Positions 1,587-58,703 of a stretch of 64,000 nucleotides of DNA are shown here, in pieces. Every line of letters starts with the position of its first letter. Positions within the stretch are counted from its first letter, which is position 1. This stretch comes from Burkholderia stabilis (GTDB lineage: Bacteria > Pseudomonadota > Gammaproteobacteria > Burkholderiales > Burkholderiaceae). Where the stretch lies: NCBI RefSeq assembly GCF_001742165.1, contig NZ_CP016442.1:868001-932000 (forward strand), in the 5' to 3' direction. A model generated the notes under the pieces. That model made no database searches. It saw only the letters and a list, made by a program, of their open reading frames with translations, and was not told the origin of the DNA. Made by a program: the position numbers and the translations under genes.

Positions 1587-2537
1587 TTACGATTTCGACG
1601 AAACGGCGGCGACGGGGCCGGCATGTGCGGGAACGGCGTCGCGCGAGCCGGCCAGTTCGGCGGCAAGATGACGCTCGGCGAGCAGCTTCAGCGCGAGCGT
1701 GACGAGTGCGAGCAACGCCAGCACCGACGCCACCGCGAACGCCGCCGCGAAGTTGTATTCGTTGTACAGGATCTCGACGTGCAGCGGCATCGTGTCGGTC
1801 ACGCCGCGGATGTGGCCCGACACGACCGATACCGCGCCGAACTCGCCCATCGCGCGCGCATTGCAGAGGATCACGCCGTACAGCAGGCCCCACTTCACGT
1901 TCGGCAGCGTGACGCGGCGGAAGATCTGCCAGCCCGACGCGCCGAGCACGCGCGCGGCTTCTTCCTCGTCGGTGCCTTGCGCCTGCATCAGCGGAATTAG
2001 CTCGCGCGCGACGAACGGGAACGTCACGAAGATCGTCGCGAGCACGATGCCCGGCACCGCGAAGATGATCTGCACGTCGTGATCCTGCAGCCACGGTCCC
2101 AGCCAGCCCTGCGCGCCGAACAGCAGCACGTAGACGAGACCCGAGATCACCGGCGACACGGAGAACGGCAGGTCGATCAGCGTCGTCAGCAGCGCCTTGC
2201 CGCGGAATTCGAATTTCGCGATCGCCCACGACGCGCACACGCCGAACACGAGGTTCAGCGGCACGGCGATCGCGGCGACGGTCAGCGTCAGCTTGATCGC
2301 CGCCCACGCGTCGGGATCGGCCAGCGACTCGAGATAGAAGCCGACGCCCTTGCGCAGCGCCTCGACGAACACCGCCGCGAGCGGCACGACGAGGAAGAAC
2401 GCGAGAAACGCCAGCGCGATGCCCGTGAGCAGCCAGCGCACCACGCGCGATTCGCTGACGGGATCGAGCCGGTTCGCGGCGCGCCCGCGCTCGGCCGATG
2501 GCGGGGTTTTCAGCACGACGGTGGCCTCCTGGCTCAT
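1587..2537 (-). CDS. cysW: Sulfate ABC transporter permease CysW
   Basis: This 316-residue inner-membrane permease forms half of the sulfate channel with CysT. A hydrophobic helix follows about 35 residues of polar leader ([20 protein letters not shown]), and the EAA loop that docks CysA reads [22 protein letters not shown]. Its ATG (2535-2537) overlaps the cysT stop codon in an ATGA arrangement, indicating translational coupling. Typical length for CysW is 280-320 residues. CysW rather than a molybdate permease is favoured by the neighbours. Confidence 0.95.
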
Positions 2538-3427
2538 TGCTGGCCTCCTGCGGCAGTTGCGGTGACGGTTGCCGGCGCGGGGCCGCTTGCGCCCTTGCTC
2601 GTGCGGCGCTGCAGATACCACTGCAGCGTGTTGATCAGCAGCAGCATCAGGAACGACACGACCAGCATCACGACCGCGAGCGCGGTCGCGCCCGCGTAGT
2701 CGTACTGCTCGAGTTTCGTGATGATCAGCAGCGACGTGATCTCGGATTTCATCGGCACGTTGCCGGCGATGAAGATCACCGAGCCGTATTCGCCGAGCGC
2801 ACGCGCGAACGCGAGCGCGAAACCGGTGAGAAGCGCCGGCAGCACGGCCGGCAGCACGACACGGCGGAACGTCAGCCAGCGCGATGCGCCGAGGCACGCT
2901 GCGGCCTCTTCCTGCTCGCGCTCGAAATCCTCGAGCACCGGCTGTACGGTGCGCACGACGAACGGCAGCCCGATGAAGGTCAGCGCGACCAGCACGCCGG
3001 CCGGCGTGAACGCGATCTTGATGCCGAGCGGCGCCAGATACTGGCCGACCCAGCCGTTGGTCGCGTAGACGGCCGCGAGCGAGATGCCCGCGACCGACGT
3101 CGGCAGCGCGAACGGCAGGTCGACGATTGCATCGACGAGCCGCTTGAACGGAAACGTGTAGCGCACGAGCACCCACGCGACGAGGAAGCCGAACACGGCG
3201 TTGATCAGGGCGCCGCCGAGCGCGGCCGAGAACGTCAGCCGGTACGACGCGAGCACGCGCGGCGACGTGACGGCGGTGACGAACTGGTCCCACGACAGCG
3301 TCGCGGTCTTCAGGAACGTGGCGGCGAGCGGAATCAGCACCACGAGGCTCAAATAAGCCACCGTGATGCCGAGCGTCACGCCGAAACCGGGCAGCGCGCT
3401 CGGCTTGCGAAAGGTGTACGTCGTCAT
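2534..3427 (-). CDS. cysT: Sulfate ABC transporter permease CysT (CysU)
   Basis: This 297-residue multi-spanning permease has an EAA loop ([21 protein letters not shown]) and about six hydrophobic segments. It pairs with CysW to form the sulfate/thiosulfate translocation pore. Its stop overlaps the cysW start by 4 bp, and it begins 121 bp after the binding-protein gene. [20 protein letters not shown] is the expected N-terminus for this family. Confidence 0.95.
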
Positions 3428-49129: not shown

Positions 49130-51616
49130 TCAATACTTCTTGCGGGCGCGTACCTTCTTCGCGGTCGGCTTCGCCGTCGCCCCACCGCCACCACCGCCGC
49201 CACCGCTCTTCTTCTTCGCGGCGGCCCGTGCGGCGCGCGCCTCCTTCACGGCGACGCTCGGCGCGCTCGCGGCCTTCTTGTGACGCGGCGCAACCTCCTC
49301 CGCCTGCGGCAGCGCGCGCAAGCGCGGGCCGTTGCGATCGGCGCCTGCGGCAGCCGGCGCGGGCGCGGGCGCAGGACGCGGCGCCTTCACCGGCGTATCG
49401 CGCACGAGGCGGAAATCGATCTTGCGCGCGTCGAGATCGACGCGGCTCACCTGTACGCGCACGCGGTCCGACAGGCGATAGCGGATGCCGGTCCGTTCGC
49501 CGCGCAGCTCGTTCTTGACTTCGTCGTACTGGAAGTAGTCCGAGCCGAGTTCCGTGACGTGCACGAGCCCTTCGATGAAGAGCGTGTCGAGCTGCACGAA
49601 GATGCCGAACGACGTGACGCCGTTCACCATCCCGCCGTACTCCTCGCCGAGCTTGTCGCGCATGAAGTAGCACTTGAGCCATGCCTCGACGTCGCGCGAT
49701 GCCTCGTCCGCACGCCGCTCGTTCGCCGAACAATGCAGGCCGAGCTCTTCCCAGATCGCGGTGTTCGTGCGCGAGCGGTTGCGCGCTTCGTCGTCGGCCT
49801 GCTGCATCGCGCGGGCGCGCGGCGACAGCGCGGTGTTCAGCTCGAAGCCGTCCGGCGCCTTCGGCACGTACTTCTTGCCCGACAGGATCGCGTAGATCGC
49901 ACGGTGCGTCAGCAGGTCGGGATAACGGCGAATCGGGCTCGTGAAGTGCGCGTACGCCTCATACGCGAGACCGAAGTGGCCGATGTTGTCCGGGCTGTAG
50001 ACGGCCTGCTGCATCGAGCGCAGCAGCATCGGCTGCAGCATCTGTGCATCGGGCCGGTCGCGGATCTGCGCCATCAGCGCCGCGTAATCGCTTGCATGCG
50101 GCTTGTCGCCGCCACCGAGCGACAAGCCCATGCCGCGCAGGAACGCGCGCAGGTTCTCGAGCTTCTCCGGCGTCGGGCCCGCGTGCACGCGGTACAGGCC
50201 CGGGTGCTTGTTGCGCTTCAGGAAATCGGCCGCGCAGACGTTCGCGGCCAGCATGCATTCCTCGATCAGCTTGTGCGCGTCGTTGCGCTGACGCGGCACG
50301 ATCTGCTCGATCTTGCCCTGCGAGTTGCAGACGATGTAGGTCTCGGTCGTGTCGAAGTCGATTGCGCCACGCTTCTGCCGCGCGGCGAACAACGCCTTGT
50401 AGACGCCATACAGATCCTGCAGGTGCGGCAGCAGGTCGGCGCGACGCGCGGCCTCCGGCCCCTTCGTGTTCGACAGCACGGCCGCGACTTCGGTGTACGT
50501 GAGGCGCGCAGCCGAATGGATCACGGCCGGGTAGAACTGGTACGCCTTGATCTCGCCGCGCGCGGTGATGATCATGTCGCACGCGAGCACGCAGCGATCG
50601 ACCTGCGGATTCAGCGAACACAGGCCGTTCGACAGCTTCTCCGGCAGCATCGGGATCACGCGGCGCGGGAAATAGACCGACGTGCTGCGTTCGAGCGCAT
50701 CGGTGTCGAGGCCGCTGCCCGGCTGTACGTAGTGCGACACGTCGGCGATCGCGACGATCAGCCGGAAGCCGTCGCCGCGACCGACCTTGACCGGCTCGCA
50801 GTAGACGGCGTCGTCGAAGTCGCGTGCATCCTCGCCGTCGATCGTCACGAGCGGCACGTCGCGCAGGTCGACGCGGAAGCGCAGGTCGGCCGGCCGCACC
50901 TTGTCGGGCAGCGCGGCGGCTTCGTCGAGCGCCGGCTGGCTGAACTCATGCGGCACGCCATACTTGCGCACCGCGATTTCGATTTCCATGCCCGGATCGT
51001 CGATATCGCCGAGCACTTCGACGACACGGCCGAGCGGCTGCGAATGACGGCTCGGGAAATCGGTGAGCTCGACGACGACGACCTGCCCGACCTTCGCCTT
51101 CTTCACGTTCTGCGTGATCAGGATGTCGTGGCCGATGCGCTTGTCTTCCGGTGCGACGATCAGCGCGCCGTTCTCGTTGAGCAGGCGGCCGATCACGCGC
51201 TTGTTCGCACGCTCGGTGACTTCGACGACATGCCCTTCGGGACGACCGCGGCGGTCGTAGCCGACGATCCGCGCGAGCACGCGATCGTTGTGCATCACCT
51301 TCTGCATTTCGCCGTTCGGCAAAAACAGGTCGTCCTGGCCGTCGTCGCGGATCACGAACCCGTAGCCGTCGCGATGCCCCTGCACGCGCCCGGCGACGAA
51401 GTTCGACGGATGGGTCAACTGGTAGTGGCCGCGCTTGTCGAGGCGGATCTGGCCGTCGCGTTCCATCGCGGCGACACGCCGGAAGAACCCCTCGCGCTCC
51501 TGACGCTTGATCGACAGCGCTTCGGCGATGTCGTTGGCAGCCAGCGGCGCGTCGCTCGTACGCAGCACGCCGAGAATTTCTTCACGGCTCGGAATGGGGT
51601 ACGGATATTTGCTCAA
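49130..51616 (-). CDS. rnr: Ribonuclease R
   Basis: This 828-residue 3'-5' exoribonuclease degrades structured RNA and acts in trans-translation and cold/stress survival. Domains in order: N-terminal winged helix (about 1-60), two cold-shock domains (about 65-230), RNB catalytic domain (about 255-590, with GEDARDFDDAV providing the metal-binding aspartates), S1 domain (about 640-725) and a basic Lys/Ala/Gly-rich tail with a poly-Gly tract. The start is TTG (51614-51616), giving SKYPYPIPSREEILGVLRTS. Confidence 0.96.
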   Translation of the reverse strand: MSKYPYPIPSREEILGVLRTSDAPLAANDIAEALSIKRQEREGFFRRVAAMERDGQIRLDKRGHYQLTHPSNFVAGRVQGHRDGYGFVIRDDGQDDLFLPNGEMQKVMHNDRVLARIVGYDRRGRPEGHVVEVTERANKRVIGRLLNENGALIVAPEDKRIGHDILITQNVKKAKVGQVVVVELTDFPSRHSQPLGRVVEVLGDIDDPGMEIEIAVRKYGVPHEFSQPALDEAAALPDKVRPADLRFRVDLRDVPLVTIDGEDARDFDDAVYCEPVKVGRGDGFRLIVAIADVSHYVQPGSGLDTDALERSTSVYFPRRVIPMLPEKLSNGLCSLNPQVDRCVLACDMIITARGEIKAYQFYPAVIHSAARLTYTEVAAVLSNTKGPEAARRADLLPHLQDLYGVYKALFAARQKRGAIDFDTTETYIVCNSQGKIEQIVPRQRNDAHKLIEECMLAANVCAADFLKRNKHPGLYRVHAGPTPEKLENLRAFLRGMGLSLGGGDKPHASDYAALMAQIRDRPDAQMLQPMLLRSMQQAVYSPDNIGHFGLAYEAYAHFTSPIRRYPDLLTHRAIYAILSGKKYVPKAPDGFELNTALSPRARAMQQADDEARNRSRTNTAIWEELGLHCSANERRADEASRDVEAWLKCYFMRDKLGEEYGGMVNGVTSFGIFVQLDTLFIEGLVHVTELGSDYFQYDEVKNELRGERTGIRYRLSDRVRVQVSRVDLDARKIDFRLVRDTPVKAPRPAPAPAPAAAGADRNGPRLRALPQAEEVAPRHKKAASAPSVAVKEARAARAAAKKKSGGGGGGGGATAKPTAKKVRARKKY

Positions 51617-51801: not shown

Positions 51802-51829
51802 TTGACACGAATAATTGGGGCGCTATAAT
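51802..51829 (+). promoter_or_regulatory. Promoter of tRNA-Leu copy 1
   Basis: TTGACA (51802-51807), 16-nt spacer, TATAAT (51824-51829), 36 bp before the tRNA. The same element with the same spacing precedes each of the other two copies. Confidence 0.85.
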
Positions 51830-51865
51830 TTCGCTTCTTTGCAGCAAGCAGCTACTGCAAAACGT

Positions 51866-51952
51866 GCCCAGGTGGCGGAATTGGTAGACGCACTAGGTTC
51901 AGGTCCTAGCGGTGGCAACATCGTGGAGGTTCGAGTCCTCTCCTGGGCACCA
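51866..51952 (+). tRNA. tRNA-Leu (CAG), copy 1
   Basis: 87 nt with a long variable arm (class II) and encoded CCA. Acceptor GCCCAGG pairs with CCTGGGC; anticodon stem CTAGG/CCTAG with loop TTCAGGT, anticodon CAG, read as Leu for the CUG codon, the most used Leu codon in this GC-rich genome. Identical to the copies at 55571 and 56945. Confidence 0.97.
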
Positions 51953-51960
51953 CTTATTTG

Positions 51961-51988
51961 AAAAGGTCGGCTTCTAGCCGGCCTTTTT
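51961..51988 (+). terminator. Terminator of tRNA-Leu copy 1
   Basis: AAAAGGTCGGC / GCCGGCCTTTTT stem with loop TTCTA. The same hairpin follows copies 2 and 3 (55665-55692, 57040-57067). Confidence 0.88.
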
Positions 51989-52019
51989 CTTTTTCCGGCC
52001 CGGGAAACAACGCGACCAA

Positions 52020-52457
52020 TCACTCGCCGATGAACTTGCGCAGCAACCGGCACAACTCGTCGAATTCGCCCTTCGTGAATTTCCGCAGGCGGGCATTGAG
52101 CACCTTCGGCGCGATCTCCGGAATCTGCGCAGCAACCGCCTGCCCCGTTTCCGTCAGCGCGAGATTCACGACCCGCCGATCGCTCACGCTGCGCGAACGC
52201 TCGACGAGCCCCTTGCTCTCCAGTTTGTCGAGCAGGCGCGTCATCAGCCCCGTGTCGACGCCGAGCAACTTCGACAGCTCGAAAGGCGTCGCCGCACTGC
52301 CGACCCGCAGCGACAGCAAGACACCCATCTGCTGCGTCGTGATGTCGAGATCCTTCAACGCCGCATCCATCTCGGAAGCGACCAGGTTACGCGCCTTCGC
52401 GAGCGCAAAACCCACGCTTTCGGTGTGCAGGAAATTCTTCGGCGTGTAGTGTTCCAT
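52020..52457 (-). CDS. MarR-family transcriptional regulator
   Basis: This 145-residue winged-helix regulator (MEHYTPKNFLHTESVGFALA) has the recognition helix region TPFELSKLLGVDTGLMTRLL and the wing ERSRSVSDRRVVNLALTETG. It starts downstream of a DHA2-type efflux gene on the same strand with 96 bp between, and probably represses that pump. The dyad in the gap suggests autoregulation. Confidence 0.93.
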   Translation of the reverse strand: MEHYTPKNFLHTESVGFALAKARNLVASEMDAALKDLDITTQQMGVLLSLRVGSAATPFELSKLLGVDTGLMTRLLDKLESKGLVERSRSVSDRRVVNLALTETGQAVAAQIPEIAPKVLNARLRKFTKGEFDELCRLLRKFIGE

Positions 52458-52469
52458 CGTGCTGCCCGC

Positions 52470-52503
52470 GTCGCATATTGTTGACCCACACAATAATTGC
52501 GAC
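52470..52503. promoter_or_regulatory. Dyad upstream of marR, candidate MarR operator
   Basis: Nested inverted repeats: outer arms GTCGCA / TGCGAC (52470-52475, 52498-52503) and inner arms ATTGT / ACAAT (52477-52481, 52490-52494), centred about 30 bp upstream of the marR start. The AT-rich inner dyad has the size of a MarR site. It would lie between the efflux gene stop and marR. Confidence 0.55.
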
Positions 52504-52553
52504 ATCAGGATTTTTCAAGGCGCGCAAGCCCGCAACCACCGGCCCGCATCGAC

Positions 52554-54116
52554 TCAATGTCCGCCGGCGGCCGCCGCGCCGGCTGCCACGCCCTTGCCCG
52601 GCCGCGTCACCCAGACCAGCGGGATGATCAGCACGAAGATCACCGCCGACAGCCAGAAAATGTCGTTCAGCCCCAGCATCGTCGCCTGCGCATTCAGCGT
52701 CGCCTCGATAAACGTGAGCGCCTTCGGCGTACCGGCATCGAGCGCGCCTTGCACGCTGGCGACCGCACTCGCGAAGATCGGGTTGTTCACGCTGCCCTGC
52801 TCGGCCAGTTGCGCGTGATGCAGGATCGTGCGGTCGTTCCAGCCGGTGCTCGCGAGCGACGTGCCGACCGCGCCCATGAACACGCGTGCGAAATTGGACA
52901 GGCCCGCGGCCGCCGGAATGCGCTCGGGCGGCAGCCCCGACAGGATGATCGACGTGAGCGGCGTCATGAAGAACGCCGTCGGGATGCCCTGCAGCAGCGT
53001 GGGCACCACGAGCGACCACGTATCGACGCCCGTCGTATAGCGCGAGCGCATGAAGAACACGCCTGCAAACCCGAGAAACGCGAGGGTGACGAGCACGCGC
53101 ATGTCCGATTTCGGCATCACCTTGCCGACCACCGGCGCGAGCATCACCGCAAAGATGCCGAGCGGTGCGGTCACGAGGCCGGCATTGACGACCGGATAAC
53201 CGAGCGAGCCCTGTATCCATTGCGGCAGGATCACGAGGTTGGCGAAAAATACTGCGAACGCAATCGAAATCGCCACCGTTCCGCCGAGGAAATTTCGCTG
53301 TGCAAACAACCTGAGATCGACGATCGGCCGTGCTTCGGTCAACTCCCAGATCAGGAAGAACACGAAGCCGACCACCGCGACGATCGTCAGGATCCAGATC
53401 GTCGATGAATTGAACCAGTCGAGATCCTTGCCCTTGTCGAGCATCACCTGCAGCGCGGCGACCCACACGACGAGCGCGATCAGCCCCACCTTGTCGATCG
53501 GCAGCTTGCGGACCGGCGTTTCGCGGTTGCGATAGAGCGCCCAGATCACTGCGGCGGCAAACAATCCGACAGGCACGTTGATGTAGAAGATCCACGACCA
53601 GCTGTAGTTGTCCGTGATCCAACCGCCGAGCGCGGGGCCGGCGATCGGCCCGACGGTCGCCGTCATCCCCCACAGCGACAGCGCGCTCGAACTCTTCTCC
53701 TTCGGGAACGAAGCCAGCAGCAACGCCTGGGACAGCGGCACGAGCGGCCCGGCCACGGCGCCCTGGACGATCCGCGCGGCGAGGAGCACGGTCAGGTTCG
53801 GAGCGAGGCCGCACGCGGCCGACGACAGCACGAACAGCAGGATGGCCCATACGAACAGCTTCACCTGCCCGACCCGCTGCGTCAGCCAGCCGGTCAGCGG
53901 GATCGACACCGCGTTGGCCGCCGAGAACAGCGTGATGACCCATGTCCCCTCGTCGATCGATACGCCGAGATTGCCCGAAATGGTCGGGATCGCGACATTG
54001 GCGATCGACGAATCGAGGACGTTCATGAACGTGGCAAGCGCCACCGCGAGCGTACCCAGCGCGAAACTTGCGCCGGTCAGCGGCGCCGGCGCACCCGAAC
54101 TTTCAGACGGTTTCAT
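52554..54116 (-). CDS. DHA2-family MFS multidrug efflux protein (EmrB/QacA-like)
   Basis: This 520-residue protein has 14 predicted membrane helices. DHA2 signatures: LATFMNVLDSSIANVAIPTI (motif D1), GWLTQRVGQVKLFVWAILLF (motif A) and the antiporter motif C region (GMTATVGPIAGPALGGWITD). It is an H+ antiporter exporting drugs or other hydrophobic compounds. Genes for an EmrA-type membrane fusion partner and an outer-membrane factor are absent, so it either works alone or borrows partners. Followed by marR. Confidence 0.93.
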   Translation of the reverse strand: MKPSESSGAPAPLTGASFALGTLAVALATFMNVLDSSIANVAIPTISGNLGVSIDEGTWVITLFSAANAVSIPLTGWLTQRVGQVKLFVWAILLFVLSSAACGLAPNLTVLLAARIVQGAVAGPLVPLSQALLLASFPKEKSSSALSLWGMTATVGPIAGPALGGWITDNYSWSWIFYINVPVGLFAAAVIWALYRNRETPVRKLPIDKVGLIALVVWVAALQVMLDKGKDLDWFNSSTIWILTIVAVVGFVFFLIWELTEARPIVDLRLFAQRNFLGGTVAISIAFAVFFANLVILPQWIQGSLGYPVVNAGLVTAPLGIFAVMLAPVVGKVMPKSDMRVLVTLAFLGFAGVFFMRSRYTTGVDTWSLVVPTLLQGIPTAFFMTPLTSIILSGLPPERIPAAAGLSNFARVFMGAVGTSLASTGWNDRTILHHAQLAEQGSVNNPIFASAVASVQGALDAGTPKALTFIEATLNAQATMLGLNDIFWLSAVIFVLIIPLVWVTRPGKGVAAGAAAAGGH

Positions 54117-54470
54117 AGGATGCCCTTCTGGTCAGGCGCCGCACGGATCGCTGCCGCGGCGTCGAGCAAAAATTAACTGACAAGTCAGATAAATAATGGA
54201 AAAAAGCGATCAACGCGGCCCGCGGGTCTTGCCCGCGTCAACGCCAATCGCTGACTCTGAGTTTTCTGCAAAGAATATATTTGACTATGCAATCAAATGC
54301 AAGCTGAAGGCGACGCGCCCCGATCGATCGCCTGCCCGCAGACGGGTACCCCCGCGCCTTATGCCCGCCAGTCGGATCGATAGCAGAATTTATCGGTTAT
54401 CGTCCGCCAGCCCCGTTGGTACGTTAGCCGGCTCGCTTCAATGCAACGACCCCAACGAGGAGCACGATTC
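54117..54470. other. Divergent intergenic region with a small dyad
   Basis: 354 bp holding the promoters of the MFS gene and of the sulfonate-binding protein gene. A CTGAC-AA-GTCAG dyad at 54177-54188, 61-72 bp upstream of the MFS start, is a candidate repressor site. No gene seen. Confidence 0.5.
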
Positions 54471-55460
54471 ATGACGTCGATGAACCGCCGCGCGTTCGCG
54501 CGCGCGATGCTGGCCGCAGGCCTCACTGTCGCGGGCGTCCGGACGCGCGCCGAGAACGCGCCTGGTGCGCTGCGCATCGGCTACCAGAAATCGTCGACGC
54601 TCATCACGCTGCTCAAGACGCGCAGCACGCTCGAGCAGACGCTTGCGCCGCTCGGCCTGCGGGTGTCGTGGCATGAGTTCGCGAGCGGATTGCCGCTGAC
54701 CGAAGCGCTCAACGTCGGCGCTGTCGATTTCAGCGCCGATGTGGCCGACACGGTCCCGGTCTTCGCGCAGGCCGCGCATGCGCGTTTCGTGTACGTCGCA
54801 CAGGAAGCGCCTTCGCCGAAGGCACAAGCGATCGTGGTCAAGCAGGACAGCGCGTTGCGCACGCTCGCCGATCTCAAGGGCAAGCGCATCGCGGTCACGA
54901 AAGCGGCCGGCAGCCATTACCTGCTGCTGGCCGCGCTCGCACGCGCAAAGCTCGCGCCGGCCGACGCGGCGATCCACTACCTGACGCCCGCGGACGGCCG
55001 CGCGGCGTTCGAGCGCGGCAGCGTCGACGCATGGATCACGTGGGATCCCTATGTCGCGTCGGTCGACCGGAATCCCGACGTGCGAATCCTGGCCGACGGC
55101 AACGGACTCGCTTCGTACCAGCGCTACTACCTCGCCTCGAGCGGTTTCGCCGCCGCGCGCCCTGACGTCATCCAAATCCTGTTCGACCAGTTGTCGCAGG
55201 CTGGCGCGTGGTTGCGCGAACACCCGCAGGAGGCCGCGAACACGCTCGCGCCAATCTGGGGGCTCGACGCGGGAACGATCGCACGCGCGAACGCGCGACG
55301 CAGCTACCTCGTCCGCTCCGTGGACGCGCAAAACTTCGGCGAACAGCAGAAGATCGCCGACACGTTCCTGGCAGCCGGACTGCTGCCGGCCCGCGTCGAT
55401 ACGAAACAGGCGCTGCGCTGGAATTTCACGGCGAAACGCGCAGATCCGGTCGGCGCGTAA
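54471..55460 (+). CDS. Aliphatic sulfonate-type ABC substrate-binding protein (SsuA-like)
   Basis: This 329-residue periplasmic protein starts at ATG 54471 behind GAGGAG. The signal peptide has twin arginines (MTSMNRRAFARAMLAAGLTV), so Tat export is possible. The mature domain matches SsuA/TauA: LRIGYQKSSTLITLLKTRST, ALNVGAVDFSADVADTVPVF, GKRIAVTKAAGSHYLLLAAL, GSVDAWITWDPYVASVDRNP. No permease or ATPase gene is adjacent; the ssuDCB operon at 31.8-34.7 kb lacks a binding protein, so this may supply it. Confidence 0.9.
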   Translation: MTSMNRRAFARAMLAAGLTVAGVRTRAENAPGALRIGYQKSSTLITLLKTRSTLEQTLAPLGLRVSWHEFASGLPLTEALNVGAVDFSADVADTVPVFAQAAHARFVYVAQEAPSPKAQAIVVKQDSALRTLADLKGKRIAVTKAAGSHYLLLAALARAKLAPADAAIHYLTPADGRAAFERGSVDAWITWDPYVASVDRNPDVRILADGNGLASYQRYYLASSGFAAARPDVIQILFDQLSQAGAWLREHPQEAANTLAPIWGLDAGTIARANARRSYLVRSVDAQNFGEQQKIADTFLAAGLLPARVDTKQALRWNFTAKRADPVGA

Positions 55461-55511
55461 GAGGCCGTTTGGCGAGGGGCCATATTTTTCGTCGCTTTCG
55501 ATGAAATTATG

Positions 55512-55539
55512 TTGACAGCCCTTCCGAACACGCTAGAAT
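55512..55539 (+). promoter_or_regulatory. Promoter of tRNA-Leu copy 2
   Basis: TTGACA (55512-55517), 16-nt spacer, TAGAAT (55534-55539), one mismatch from consensus and otherwise as in copies 1 and 3. Confidence 0.82.
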
Positions 55540-55570
55540 AGCGGTCTTCGCATCGCAGCAAGCGAAACGT

Positions 55571-55657
55571 GCCCAGGTGGCGGAATTGGTAGACGCACTA
55601 GGTTCAGGTCCTAGCGGTGGCAACATCGTGGAGGTTCGAGTCCTCTCCTGGGCACCA
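55571..55657 (+). tRNA. tRNA-Leu (CAG), copy 2
   Basis: 87 nt, identical to copies 1 and 3, with encoded CCA and its own promoter and terminator. Identity extends into the 3' flank through the terminator. Confidence 0.97.
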
Positions 55658-55664
55658 CTTATTT

Positions 55665-55692
55665 GAAAAGGTCGGCTTCTAGCCGGCCTTTT
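55665..55692 (+). terminator. Terminator of tRNA-Leu copy 2
   Basis: Same AAAAGGTCGGC / GCCGGCCTTTTT hairpin as after copy 1. Confidence 0.88.
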
Positions 55693-55763
55693 TCTTTTTC
55701 CGGCCCGGGAAGTGAAACACCTGCGTGCATTGCGGGGAACTCGAAAGGCCGCACTTATGCGAC

Positions 55764-55820
55764 CGAGCCCTCCCCAGGGACGACTCAATGAAAAAGGCCG
55801 GCTTTTAGCCGGCCTTTTTC
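55764..55820 (+). repeat. Decayed 3' part of a tRNA-Leu unit
   Basis: The segment aligns with the T-arm end, acceptor end and terminator of the tRNA-Leu copies: CGAGCCCTCC corresponds to CGAGTCCTCT, and AAAAAGGCCGGCTTTTAGCC to AAAAGGTCGGCTTCTAGCC. Base changes break the tRNA fold, but the terminator hairpin is kept. Only the 3' part is visible. It lies 107 bp after copy 2. Confidence 0.6.
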
Positions 55821-55965
55821 ATTGACGGCCCCGGATACAAAGCGGGATCGGGGCCGCGAATTCGAGACGCTCAACGAGCACAGCTGGCACGCACGAAACA
55901 CTCCGATCCCGCATCAGCCCCACTCGGCCGGACGACCATCCAGACATGGCCTCCGGCCGCCAACC

Positions 55966-56529
55966 TCAAGCGCCGTTCCAGCGTTTCGCGGCAATCGCGA
56001 CGCGCTCGCCCAGCACTTCGGCCGTCTTTCGATCGCTTTCGAGAATCGCATCGCCACCCTCGTCCGCGTTCGCCTGCGCCATCGCGCCGAGGAACGATCC
56101 AAGCCGATTCAGATCGTTGACCGAGCCCTTGCTGTTGTTGTTGCCGGGCATCAGGCCGAGGCTGACCCACAGCATCTGATGCTGGGCCGCGAAGACAGCC
56201 AGTTGCTGCAGCGTCGCGAGTTTGTCGCCGCTTTGCGAAGCCGATACCGTGAAGCCTGCCGCCAGCTTGTCTCGCCACTTGCCCCAGTACTTCGACGATG
56301 CGTCCATGAAGCCCTTGAACTGGGCGGACGCGCTGCCCATGTAGGTCGGCGAACCAAAGACGATCGCCTTGGCATCGCGCTCCAGATACTCCCAATGCTC
56401 GTCGATCGCATCGACAGGGATCAGCTTGACCGACACGCCGTCGACTTTCTCGACACCACGCGCGACCGCATCTGCGATGACGGCCGCATGGCCGTAGCCA
56501 CTATGAAACACCACTGCGATTTCAGACAT
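55966..56529 (-). CDS. Flavodoxin-fold NAD(P)H:quinone oxidoreductase-like protein
   Basis: This 187-residue protein has the flavodoxin fold of the WrbA/FMN-reductase group: MSEIAVVFHSGYGHAAVIAD (FMN phosphate loop) and KAIVFGSPTYMGSASAQFKG. WrbA enzymes reduce quinones by two electrons with NAD(P)H. The start at 56529 is preceded by AAGGAG. Monocistronic, located between tRNA-Leu copies 2 and 3. Confidence 0.9.
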   Translation of the reverse strand: MSEIAVVFHSGYGHAAVIADAVARGVEKVDGVSVKLIPVDAIDEHWEYLERDAKAIVFGSPTYMGSASAQFKGFMDASSKYWGKWRDKLAAGFTVSASQSGDKLATLQQLAVFAAQHQMLWVSLGLMPGNNNSKGSVNDLNRLGSFLGAMAQANADEGGDAILESDRKTAEVLGERVAIAAKRWNGA

Positions 56530-56944
56530 GAAAAGCTCCTTGTCGCGGACTATTCCGCAAAAAAACGTTACCGCGATAGTAACAGAAATAATTGCAATGC
56601 AAGCGCCTCTGCTTGCCCGTGCCGCGCGCTCCATTACCGTTGATGGCTGCGCGATGCACATGATGCGGACAAGCGAGCCGACAATCGCGGCGCGCGCGGC
56701 CAGCGCGGCACCTCCGACACACCCCGACAATAATTTCTTCGGCGATGGACTTGAATAGGCGTTCAGGAAATTCGCTCATTCCTCTCCGGCGGCAATCCTT
56801 CGCCTCGGGATCGCCCCGGCATCGCCATTCTTCGGATACGGTGAATCCCGCGCCCCTCCCCACACGATGGCGCACAAAAGCTATTGACAAGCCGTTCAGG
56901 CACGCTATAATTGCGGTCTTTCGCGATGCAGCAATGCGAAACGT
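56530..56944. other. Intergenic region upstream of tRNA-Leu copy 3
   Basis: 415 bp with no supportable gene; contains the flavodoxin-gene promoter region and the tRNA promoter at 56884-56911. Confidence 0.5.
56884..56911 (+). promoter_or_regulatory. Promoter of tRNA-Leu copy 3
   Basis: TTGACA (56884-56889), 16-nt spacer, TATAAT (56906-56911), a perfect match to both hexamers. Confidence 0.88.
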
Positions 56945-57031
56945 GCCCAGGTGGCGGAATTGGTAGACGCACTAGGTTCAGGTCCTAGCGGTGGCAACAT
57001 CGTGGAGGTTCGAGTCCTCTCCTGGGCACCA
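56945..57031 (+). tRNA. tRNA-Leu (CAG), copy 3
   Basis: 87 nt, identical to copies 1 and 2, with encoded CCA, own promoter and the same terminator downstream. Confidence 0.97.
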
Positions 57032-57039
57032 CTTATTTG

Positions 57040-57067
57040 AAAAGGTCGGCTTCTAGCCGGCCTTTTT
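57040..57067 (+). terminator. Terminator of tRNA-Leu copy 3
   Basis: Same AAAAGGTCGGC / GCCGGCCTTTTT hairpin as after copies 1 and 2. Confidence 0.88.
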
Positions 57068-57102
57068 CTTTTTCCGGCACAAAAAGCAAAGCGCCTGCGT
57101 GG

Positions 57103-57164
57103 CCGAGCCCTCTCCCGAGCACCCTCTGTTTTTGAAAAGGTCCGCTTCCAGCCGGCCTTTTTTC
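57103..57164 (+). repeat. Decayed 3' part of a tRNA-Leu unit
   Basis: CCGAGCCCTCTCCCGAGCAC corresponds to TCGAGTCCTCTCCTGGGCAC of the tRNA 3' end, followed by the terminator-like TTTGAAAAGGTCCGCTTCCA and GCCGGCCTTTTTT. The acceptor no longer matches and no 5' half is present. It begins 72 bp after copy 3. Confidence 0.65.
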
Positions 57165-57392
57165 ATTTCCGGCCTCGCATCACTCACGTCGCACGGTGTG
57201 ACGAATCCCCCCTTGCCATCTCCCGGCCGGACAAATCGCCTCCGCTGTGACCTCACGCGCCTCCAGACGCGCCTCGAAGCTTCTGCCGCACGGCCTCACA
57301 ACCCATCCCCGTTTTCCCGACACACGCACCGCCACCCTTCCTCTTCGGCAAAACCGGGATTTCCCTAGGCTGACATGCCGGTGCTCCCGCGG

Positions 57393-57419: not shown

Positions 57420-57455
57420 TGCGCCGACACGCGGCGCAGCATGGAAGGAGACGCC

Positions 57456-58703
57456 ATGAGAAGCCCGCACATCGGCCAGGGAAGCAATTCGGCCAACGTG
57501 CGCCGTTACAACGAACGGCTGCTGCTGAAGACGCTGCGCCGTGCAGGCAGCGCGTCGAAAGCCGATCTCGCCCGCCTCGCGAACATGACGGGCACGGCGG
57601 TCGGCAGCATCATCACGTCGCTCGCCGACGCCAAGCTGATCGAATTCGCGGGTCGTACCGAAGGCCAGCGCGGCCAGCCGGCATCGCTGATCCGCCTCGA
57701 CCCGCGCGGCGCGTTCGGTATCGGCGTCCATCTCGACCGGATGCGCATCGAGACGGCGCTCGTCAACTTCGCGGGCGACGTGCTCGGCCGCCGCTCGCAC
57801 GACACACTGCTGCCGCCGCCCGCCGACGTGCTCGAGATCGTGCGGCACGACATCGACGCAATGCAGGCCCTGCTCCCGGACCATGAACGCGCCCGCCTGA
57901 CCGGCGTCGGCGTCGCGCAGCCATACAACCTCGGCGCATGGATGCGCGAACTCGGCCTCGCGCCCGACACGTTCCGCGCATGGGAAGACGTCGATTTCGC
58001 GAGCGACCTCGGTCGCACGCTGTCGCTGCCCGTGTTCGGCGAAAACGACGGCAACGCGGCCGCGATCGCCGAGCTGTTCTACGGCTACGGCCGGCAGTGC
58101 GACGACTTCGTCTACCTGTTCATCGGGCCGGCGATCGGCGGCGGCATCGCGGTCGACGGCGACTGCCTGCGCGGCGTGACCGGCAACGCGGGCGACATCG
58201 CCGTGATTCCGGTGCCGCCGAGCCGGCTCGCCTCCGCGCCGCCGCCGCGCGGCCCGTGGGACATCCTGCTCGCGCGCGCGTCGCTGCATGCGCTCGTGCG
58301 CCATCTGCGCCATCACGGCGAGGCGGTCGAGAACCGCGCCGATCTCGAAGCATGCATCGCCCGCGGCCTGCCGGCCGTCGACGAATGGATCGACGACTGC
58401 GTCGATGCACTCGCGCCGGCATTGCGCGCGGTGCTGTGCGTGATCGATGCGCCGGTGGTCGTGCTCGACGCCGACACCGACGCGGGCCTGCTCGACGCAG
58501 TCACGACACGCCTGCGCGCGGCGCTCGTGGCCACCGCGCCCGAAGCGCGCGGCACGCCGATGCTCGTGCGCGGCACGTTCGGCGCCGACGCCGGCGCGAT
58601 CGGCGCCGCCACGCTGCCGATGTTCTTCAACTTCTCCCCGCGGGCCGGCATCCTCAAGGGCGCCCGCACCGACTCGCAGGAGGTCCACCATGCCGCGTTC
58701 TGA
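57456..58703 (+). CDS. ROK-family transcriptional regulator
   Basis: This 415-residue protein has an N-terminal winged helix-turn-helix (about residues 22-75, [20 protein letters not shown]) and a ROK sugar-binding domain ([33 protein letters not shown]). The usual ROK zinc cluster CxCGxxGC is absent: the equivalent region reads [20 protein letters not shown]. It is therefore a regulator, not a kinase. The start at 57456 has GGAG eight bases upstream. It overlaps the ATPase gene by 14 bp and probably represses the operon until sugar binds. Confidence 0.92.

Follow-up and report, generated by a model that had tools for sequence, protein, structure and literature searches.

The window analysed here is a stretch of 64,000 nucleotides (nt) of the 8.5-Mb genome of Burkholderia stabilis (G000; contig NZ_CP016442.1, here C1, positions 868001-932000). 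It contains an array of three tRNA-Leu(CAG) genes, termed copies A, B and C, and behind copies B and C lie two partial segments with a tRNA-like 3' end. Comparison with related genomes places both segments as decayed members of a family of structured repeats, called units in the following, which copy only positions C56 to A76 of a tRNA.

All three genes were called by ARAGORN on the plus strand (Table 1) and are identical, letter for letter, over 87 nt as well as over the following 45 nt, within which the terminator lies. Their identity, shared orientation and common terminator, as given in the initial annotation, could thus be confirmed, and the promoters described there, TTGACA-16-TATAAT or TTGACA-16-TAGAAT, were read ahead of each copy. 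Regarding repeats, the window revealed one of 166 nt with start-to-start distances of 3705 and 1374 nt, and one of 58 nt present in five copies.

The two partial segments, also named in the initial annotation, are both real, though of unequal strength. A profile built from 135 functional copies of the tRNA 3' end and its terminator matched both of them, with 28.5 bits (E 6e-7) and 52.6 bits (E 2e-14). At 57104, 17 of 21 bases are those of the tRNA 3' end, which makes this segment the top match of the window on both strands outside the three tRNAs, followed by two places with 15 of 21. The T-arm/acceptor part of the segment at 55764 reaches 13 of 21 by eye, which equals the background, as 45 places in the window score 13; this segment was accepted on account of its terminator copy and the comparison with intact units of other genomes. 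Behind copy A, no unit was detected 3' of the terminator, where by eye only CCCGGGAA is seen.

Anatomy, fold and spread of the unit

A query of 176 nt from copy B matched 64 of the 65 genomes of the genus, and locus stretches were fetched from 45 of the 65, picked from the matches listed. In the fetched stretches, the profile gave 60 extra plus-strand matches behind tRNAs, of which 45 passed a filter (start at or before model position 11, at least 25 bits) and 15 were set aside; two of those that passed are the window's own, and the one of genome G034 is a bare 3'-end fragment with no unit. The start is sharply defined, being model position 10, that is C56 of the tRNA, in 44 of the 45. An intact unit has a length of about 107 nt and lies directly behind the tRNA gene on the same strand, either singly or in tandem with a period of about 152 nt. 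At the Leu locus, near-full-length units (distance at least 149 nt) were found in 20 of the 45 genomes and any unit in 22. The distance from the preceding tRNA or unit to the unit end could be measured in 44 cases and is 150-156 nt in 39 of them. G200 (L223, 2068-3268) has seven units in runs of two and five behind two tRNA-Leu(CAG) genes, with a period of about 151 nt and six of them sharing one score.

The unit opens with a strand that pairs with the acceptor 3' end, followed by hairpin 1 and a strand that pairs with the T-loop and the 3' side of the T-stem; hairpins 3 and 4 come next, then the copy of tRNA C56-A76 with its CCA, and finally a copy of the tRNA terminator. In the Leu unit these parts read, from 5' to 3', GCCCAGGA, a hairpin, GAGGACTCG, two hairpins, CGAGTCCTCTCCTGGGCACCA and the terminator, so that GCCCAGGA and GAGGACTCG together form the reverse complement of the tRNA 3' end, interrupted by hairpin 1. 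The resulting structure has five helices, and the predicted folds are strong: -71.7 kcal/mol (z -7.7) for the Leu unit, -74.6 kcal/mol (z -6.0) for a unit behind a tRNA-Asp gene of the same genome as the window, and -68.4 kcal/mol (z -7.1) for a Ser unit.

Covariation in the helices is strong. In an alignment of 59 rows, 50 of them distinct, 96.6% of the cells are paired, compared with a mean of 77.0 after shuffling and 36-49% for slid structures, and double changes were seen in 29 of 40 pairs, with examples in all five helices; none of 500 shuffles reached the observed value on four of five measures and two of 500 did so on the number of pair types, all these numbers leaning high because the rows are related, were fitted to the covariance model and include one reverse-strand match. 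A second alignment, made with MAFFT, misplaced the acceptor gap of the Asp and Ser units and was set aside for the counts. Pair changes can also be read in the raw sequences, for hairpin 1 as GCAAAGCGC/GCGCTTTGC, GGAAGCCGC/GCGGCTTCC and GTCAGGTGC/GCACCTGAC, and in G112 the tRNA has G6.U67 and its unit A6-U67. With one near-constant G.U pair excluded, G.U cells outnumber A.C cells by 43 to 14, which points to the tRNA-sense strand as the one that is folded.

A covariance model built from 32 Leu units, R1, matched 49 of the 65 genomes of the genus and 90 of 299 genomes of the family, in 8 of 25 genera (the two sets overlap), places outside the Leu locus included. Forty stretches taken from the R1 lists contain 59 matches, one reverse-strand duplicate being dropped from the tRNA counts. 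These matches sit behind tRNA-Leu(CAG), tRNA-Asp(GTC) and tRNA-Ser(GGA), and the sequences inspected mostly show the acceptor strand and the 3' end of their own tRNA; weak or decayed units with no match to the local tRNA occur as well, for example in L238 and as the second unit of L225. The genome of the window itself carries an intact unit behind tRNA-Asp (C1:329075-329180, 106 bits) and a weak one behind another tRNA-Asp at C1:477627 (32.6 bits, E 0.02).

A further covariance model, R2, matched 15 of 300 genomes of the order, belonging to 11 of 134 genera and eight family labels. Its stretches gave 45 rows, of which 31 were kept and 14 were dropped as duplicates or reverse-strand matches. 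By adding tRNA-Ser(CGA, TGA, GCT) and tRNA-Glu(TTC), it raised the number of tRNA kinds followed by units to seven. For one of the eight family labels (G498, L263) there is no tRNA nearby; the unit-like match there (1501-1607, 78 bits) has neither a tRNA nor a tRNA fragment seen upstream. In total, 89 matches were examined, of which 86 follow a tRNA encoded on the same strand of the locus, the first units being 7-81 nt away from it; the other three are those of L245, L234 and L263. The 20 nt that close the unit are exactly those of the local tRNA in 57 of the 86 and agree at 18 or more positions in 63, while in a swapped control with tRNAs of another kind only 32 of 4866 comparisons reached at least 18 of 20. 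A phylum-wide search gave matches in 4 of 299 genomes, each of them from the order to which the window belongs; absence outside the order is a weak result because the first pass scored only 13 candidates per genome.

Held against this family, the two segments of the window are incomplete. Unit B is about 24 nt short, and R2 ranks it as the top place of the region (Table 1); unit C has lost most of its middle, is not among the R2 matches of the region, and is assigned by its match to the tRNA end, its GCAAAGCGCCTGCG start and its terminator copy. Both fold no better than shuffled sequence (z 0.5 for B, 0.8 for C). In this genome, the units of the Leu locus are decayed, and one tRNA-Asp unit is intact.

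The array and its cargo in relatives

The features of the array are listed in Table 1. At the rnr gene beside it, the closest named relatives of the genome belong to Burkholderia. The cargo named in the initial annotation, namely marR, an efflux gene, an SsuA-like gene and a flavodoxin gene, was recovered by Pfam searches.

Table 1. Features of the tRNA-Leu(CAG) array of B. stabilis and its neighbours (positions in the window).
Feature	Position	Strand	Basis
rnr (RNase R), name presumed; left neighbour of the array, conserved in relatives	49130..51616	-	
Promoter of copy A, TTGACA-16-TATAAT	51802..51829	+	read from sequence
tRNA-Leu(CAG) copy A	51866..51952	+	ARAGORN
Intrinsic terminator of copy A	51960..51992	+	
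MarR family regulator, cargo of gap A-B	52020..52505	-	Pfam MarR
MFS transporter, cargo of gap A-B	52554..54116	-	Pfam MFS_1
NMT1/SsuA-like binding protein, cargo of gap A-B	54471..55460	+	Pfam NMT1
Promoter of copy B, TTGACA-16-TAGAAT	55512..55539	+	read from sequence
tRNA-Leu(CAG) copy B	55571..55657	+	ARAGORN
Intrinsic terminator of copy B	55665..55697	+	
Decayed unit after copy B, shortened by about 24 nt	55704..55784	+	R2 19.2 bits, E 0.007
Copied terminator after decayed unit B	55787..55820	+	58-nt repeat family
Flavodoxin/FMN reductase-like protein, cargo of gap B-C	55966..56529	-	Pfam FMN_red/Flavodoxin_1
Promoter of copy C, TTGACA-16-TATAAT	56884..56911	+	read from sequence
tRNA-Leu(CAG) copy C	56945..57031	+	ARAGORN
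Intrinsic terminator of copy C	57039..57071	+	
Decayed unit after copy C, which opens with GCAAAGCGCCTGCG, has lost its middle and retains the tRNA 3'-end copy	57086..57124	+	
Copied terminator after decayed unit C	57133..57165	+	58-nt repeat family
ROK family regulator, right neighbour	57441..58703	+	Pfam

Three tRNA-Leu(CAG) genes were found in 42 of the 45 Burkholderia stretches and two in the other three, and the copies are separated by 188 nt to 28.8 kb. In its most complete form the array runs rnr - A - [marR - MFS] - [SsuA-like] - B - [flavodoxin] - C - ROK, where any bracketed part may be missing; G041, G063 and G064 have three tRNAs with short gaps and none of the window's cargo genes. 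Among single proteins tested from large inserts, Pfam assigned a chitin-active lytic polysaccharide monooxygenase and a CHASE2 kinase to the first insert of G022 and a short-chain dehydrogenase to its second; G004 gave an ABC ATPase and G042 a sulphate permease. Because gap length and cargo vary between genomes, rather than the same cargo recurring at a constant spacing, a tRNA array with recombining or inserting cargo, as had been proposed, is judged real from these comparisons. In G013 and G037, the SsuA-like gene lies between the second and the third tRNA, which suggests an exchange between tRNA copies. Outside the genus, the loci of Paraburkholderia and Caballeronia mostly have two tRNAs beside rnr, and further genera have one to four at the locus or, in some, none within the stretch.

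Gaps of about 19 and 25 kb recur between tRNA-Leu copies in G022 (L162-L164), G049 (L159-L161) and G059 (L165-L167), and a large open reading frame (ORF) that by eye resembles a nonribosomal peptide synthetase lies alongside the dehydrogenase in G022. Behind copy A of G002 (L171/L170), two ORFs resembling IS3-type transposases begin where the terminator after the unit breaks off, so an insertion sequence has probably landed there.

Comparison with RtT RNA

RtT RNA, or RttR (RF00391), is generally regarded as particular to a single E. coli operon and is released there from the tRNA transcript as a stable RNA. In strain K-12, the RtT unit begins with GGGGAAGGAT and ends with ATCCTTCCCC-CACCACCA, units follow tyrV at 178-nt steps in the tyrT locus, and the RttR RNA is annotated up to precisely the CCA of the first of these units. 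Matches occur in 4695 of 5426 E. coli genomes, at 1-14 places per genome (median 3). In strain CKJ_1000_3.1 (L285, 1348-1592), a unit with an RF00391 score of 101 bits lies behind a tRNA-Pro gene and carries the end of tRNA-Pro together with a copy of the tRNA-Pro terminator. RtT is therefore not confined to tyrT and, in this one case seen, it too appears to change its end with the tRNA that it follows. By eye, the start of a second unit comes behind it. The accessible part of PMC12306157 lists rttR as containing repetitive extragenic palindromic (REP) sequences.

The Burkholderiales unit and RtT have much in common. Both lie behind a tRNA gene on the same strand, in tandem and with variable copy number, both end in the local tRNA 3' end with CCA, and both have a 5' strand complementary to that end, in E. 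coli GGGGAAGGAT/ATCCTTCCCC. They differ in several features: RtT has a spacing of 178 nt at tyrT with no terminator between units seen by eye, its outer stem covers less of the acceptor, its units also copy part of the 5' side of the T-arm by eye, and the fold of the E. coli unit has a z of only -3.6. Above all, the Burkholderiales units of six loci gave no RF00391 match at E values up to 1, while the same model found five RtT matches in two E. coli loci as a positive control; R2 in turn gave nothing above noise in the two E. coli loci, its best score at an E. coli unit being 5.4 bits. Sequence kinship is for this reason not claimed, and we class the unit as RtT-like rather than RtT: it is not RtT, and would work like it by sharing its logic and not its sequence.

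No Rfam family reached its gathering score at the units of six loci. Sub-threshold overlaps included PrrB_RsmZ (22.9 of 44 bits), Leu_leader (26 of 50) and sX4 (51.2 of 70, mostly over tRNA-Ser), and those of the window, such as STnc70 (28.3 of 40), were likewise below their gathering scores and taken as chance. The Burkholderiales-1 motif, a candidate structured RNA from the same order that the accessible part of PMC2864571 lists with no detail, may be identical with the unit. A search of the open-access literature, judged by listing entries and with the older RtT papers outside its reach, yielded no description of such units, and the accessible part of PMC4603805 does not mention them.

Rival readings and proposed role of the unit

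The best explanation as a whole is probably that the two segments are broken units of the tRNA-end-copying family and that such units act as RNA; for the intact unit, an RNA role is the most likely one on present comparisons. The main rival is a mobile DNA cassette, with the folded single strand as the substrate of a recombinase or transposase, the tRNA 3' end as its insertion site and no role for RNA. The same body behind different tRNAs, the tandem arrays, the varying copy number and the terminators before and behind each unit would all suit such a cassette. We nevertheless regard it as unlikely, as the fit to the local tRNA extends to the 5' strand, an outcome that simple insertion would not produce, and G.U exceeds A.C on the tRNA-sense strand. 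Moreover, with one Leu unit or its core pattern as query, no phage or viral contig was found as a carrier, and the three matches in a plasmid collection are Cupriavidus replicons of 2.5-2.6 Mb.

Less probable still are units that merely reinforce the transcription stop or act as spacers, spread by recombination between tRNA repeats and having neither an RNA product nor a specific enzyme. Each unit does carry a terminator copy and strong hairpins, and loss and decay are frequent, but a terminator needs no copy of the CCA, no covarying body of five helices and no re-matching to each tRNA.

Integration at the tRNA 3' end, the second origin considered in the initial annotation, does occur at such loci. 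The accessible part of PMC2612704 describes tRNA 3' ends as integration sites in the genus, with 3'-end repeats of 14 to 56 bp, the 56-bp one at a tRNA-Leu. In G011 (L151), a PF00589 integrase starts just behind the terminator of copy C, so an island probably uses this site, and bare tRNA 3'-end fragments occur in L234, L245 and G034; in L245 and L234, such a fragment, from tRNA-Leu or tRNA-Ser, precedes the unit, as expected of an island scar. A tRNA 3'-end repeat downstream of the gene is indeed what an attR scar and a unit have in common. As an account of the window's segments, however, attR scars of islands or phages are improbable: scars have no complementary 5' strand, conserved fold or short tandem period, whereas units have a covarying body of 107 nt with strands complementary to the tRNA end, are repeated about every 152 nt and are found alongside scar-like fragments with no such body. 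One Leu unit as query found no phage record, the exact Leu-type core pattern no viral contig, and the PF00589 matches listed for 14 genomes with large inserts all fall outside those inserts. The scar reading is thus largely refuted for the units and retained for the fragments in L234, L245 and G034, that of G034 likely being an integration scar. There, a bare 3' end of tRNA-Leu and its terminator are preceded by unrelated DNA (L148, about 3207-3284 after turning), and beside the unit of L234 lies an ORF of 443 amino acids (1769-3100), integrase-like by look. The published 56-bp repeat (GI5) is about as long as a tRNA end and a terminator together and might represent a unit instead of a scar.

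That the segments are decayed tandem tRNA-Leu duplicates, as the initial annotation had it, is hardly credible: the T-arm/acceptor end and the terminator are kept and the locus carries tandem tRNAs, but this reading is refuted by other genomes, which have intact units at this position; there, the segment ends a distinct structured body, the tRNA similarity starts sharply at C56, and ARAGORN, with its criterion of a cloverleaf with an anticodon, calls no tRNA.

For the RNA reading, the following course may be proposed. Units would multiply and be lost by homologous recombination between the repeat blocks of tRNA end and terminator. In the course of evolution they would have passed from one tRNA gene to another, selection restoring the paired strand. 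A transcript that starts at the tRNA promoter and reads through would contain the tRNA-sense strand of the unit, which may fold into a tRNA-like body ending in a true tRNA 3' end and be matured at its CCA end by tRNA enzymes, as the annotation of E. coli RttR suggests by analogy. The product would probably engage enzymes of tRNA end processing or CCA binding.

Several observations weigh against this proposal. Little read-through is expected, because an intrinsic terminator stands between tRNA and unit and again behind each unit. The unit seems dispensable, since R1 is unmatched in 16 of the 65 Burkholderia genomes and several copies are decayed. In 23 of the 86 units, fewer than 18 of the last 20 positions match the own tRNA, and the terminator copies are not clearly more alike within genomes (0.88) than between them (0.86). 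Finally, the 32 Burkholderia Leu units alone, which are 96% identical, display no covariation, shuffles equalling the observed values; recent spread or gene conversion also explains this. Covariation is uninformative inside Burkholderia and becomes decisive once the Asp, Ser and other-genus units are added.

It is conceivable, and offered here tentatively, that RtT of enterobacteria and the unit of the Burkholderiales both belong, independently or as very distant relatives, to a general class of bacterial elements behind tRNA genes, whose body moves between loci and rebuilds the two strands of its outer stem to fit the 3' end of the local tRNA, and whose tRNA-like RNAs with authentic CCA ends act on tRNA maturation or the aminoacyl machinery. 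The same architecture with unrelated sequence, behind seven tRNA kinds and in several families of the Burkholderia order, provides a class for comparative study beyond E. coli RtT. It raises the questions of how an element keeps matching the end of whichever tRNA precedes it, and whether cells produce, beside the ordinary tRNAs, tRNA-like RNAs that bear genuine tRNA ends. For the annotation of such loci, it also means that 3'-end repeats behind tRNA genes are not always island scars.

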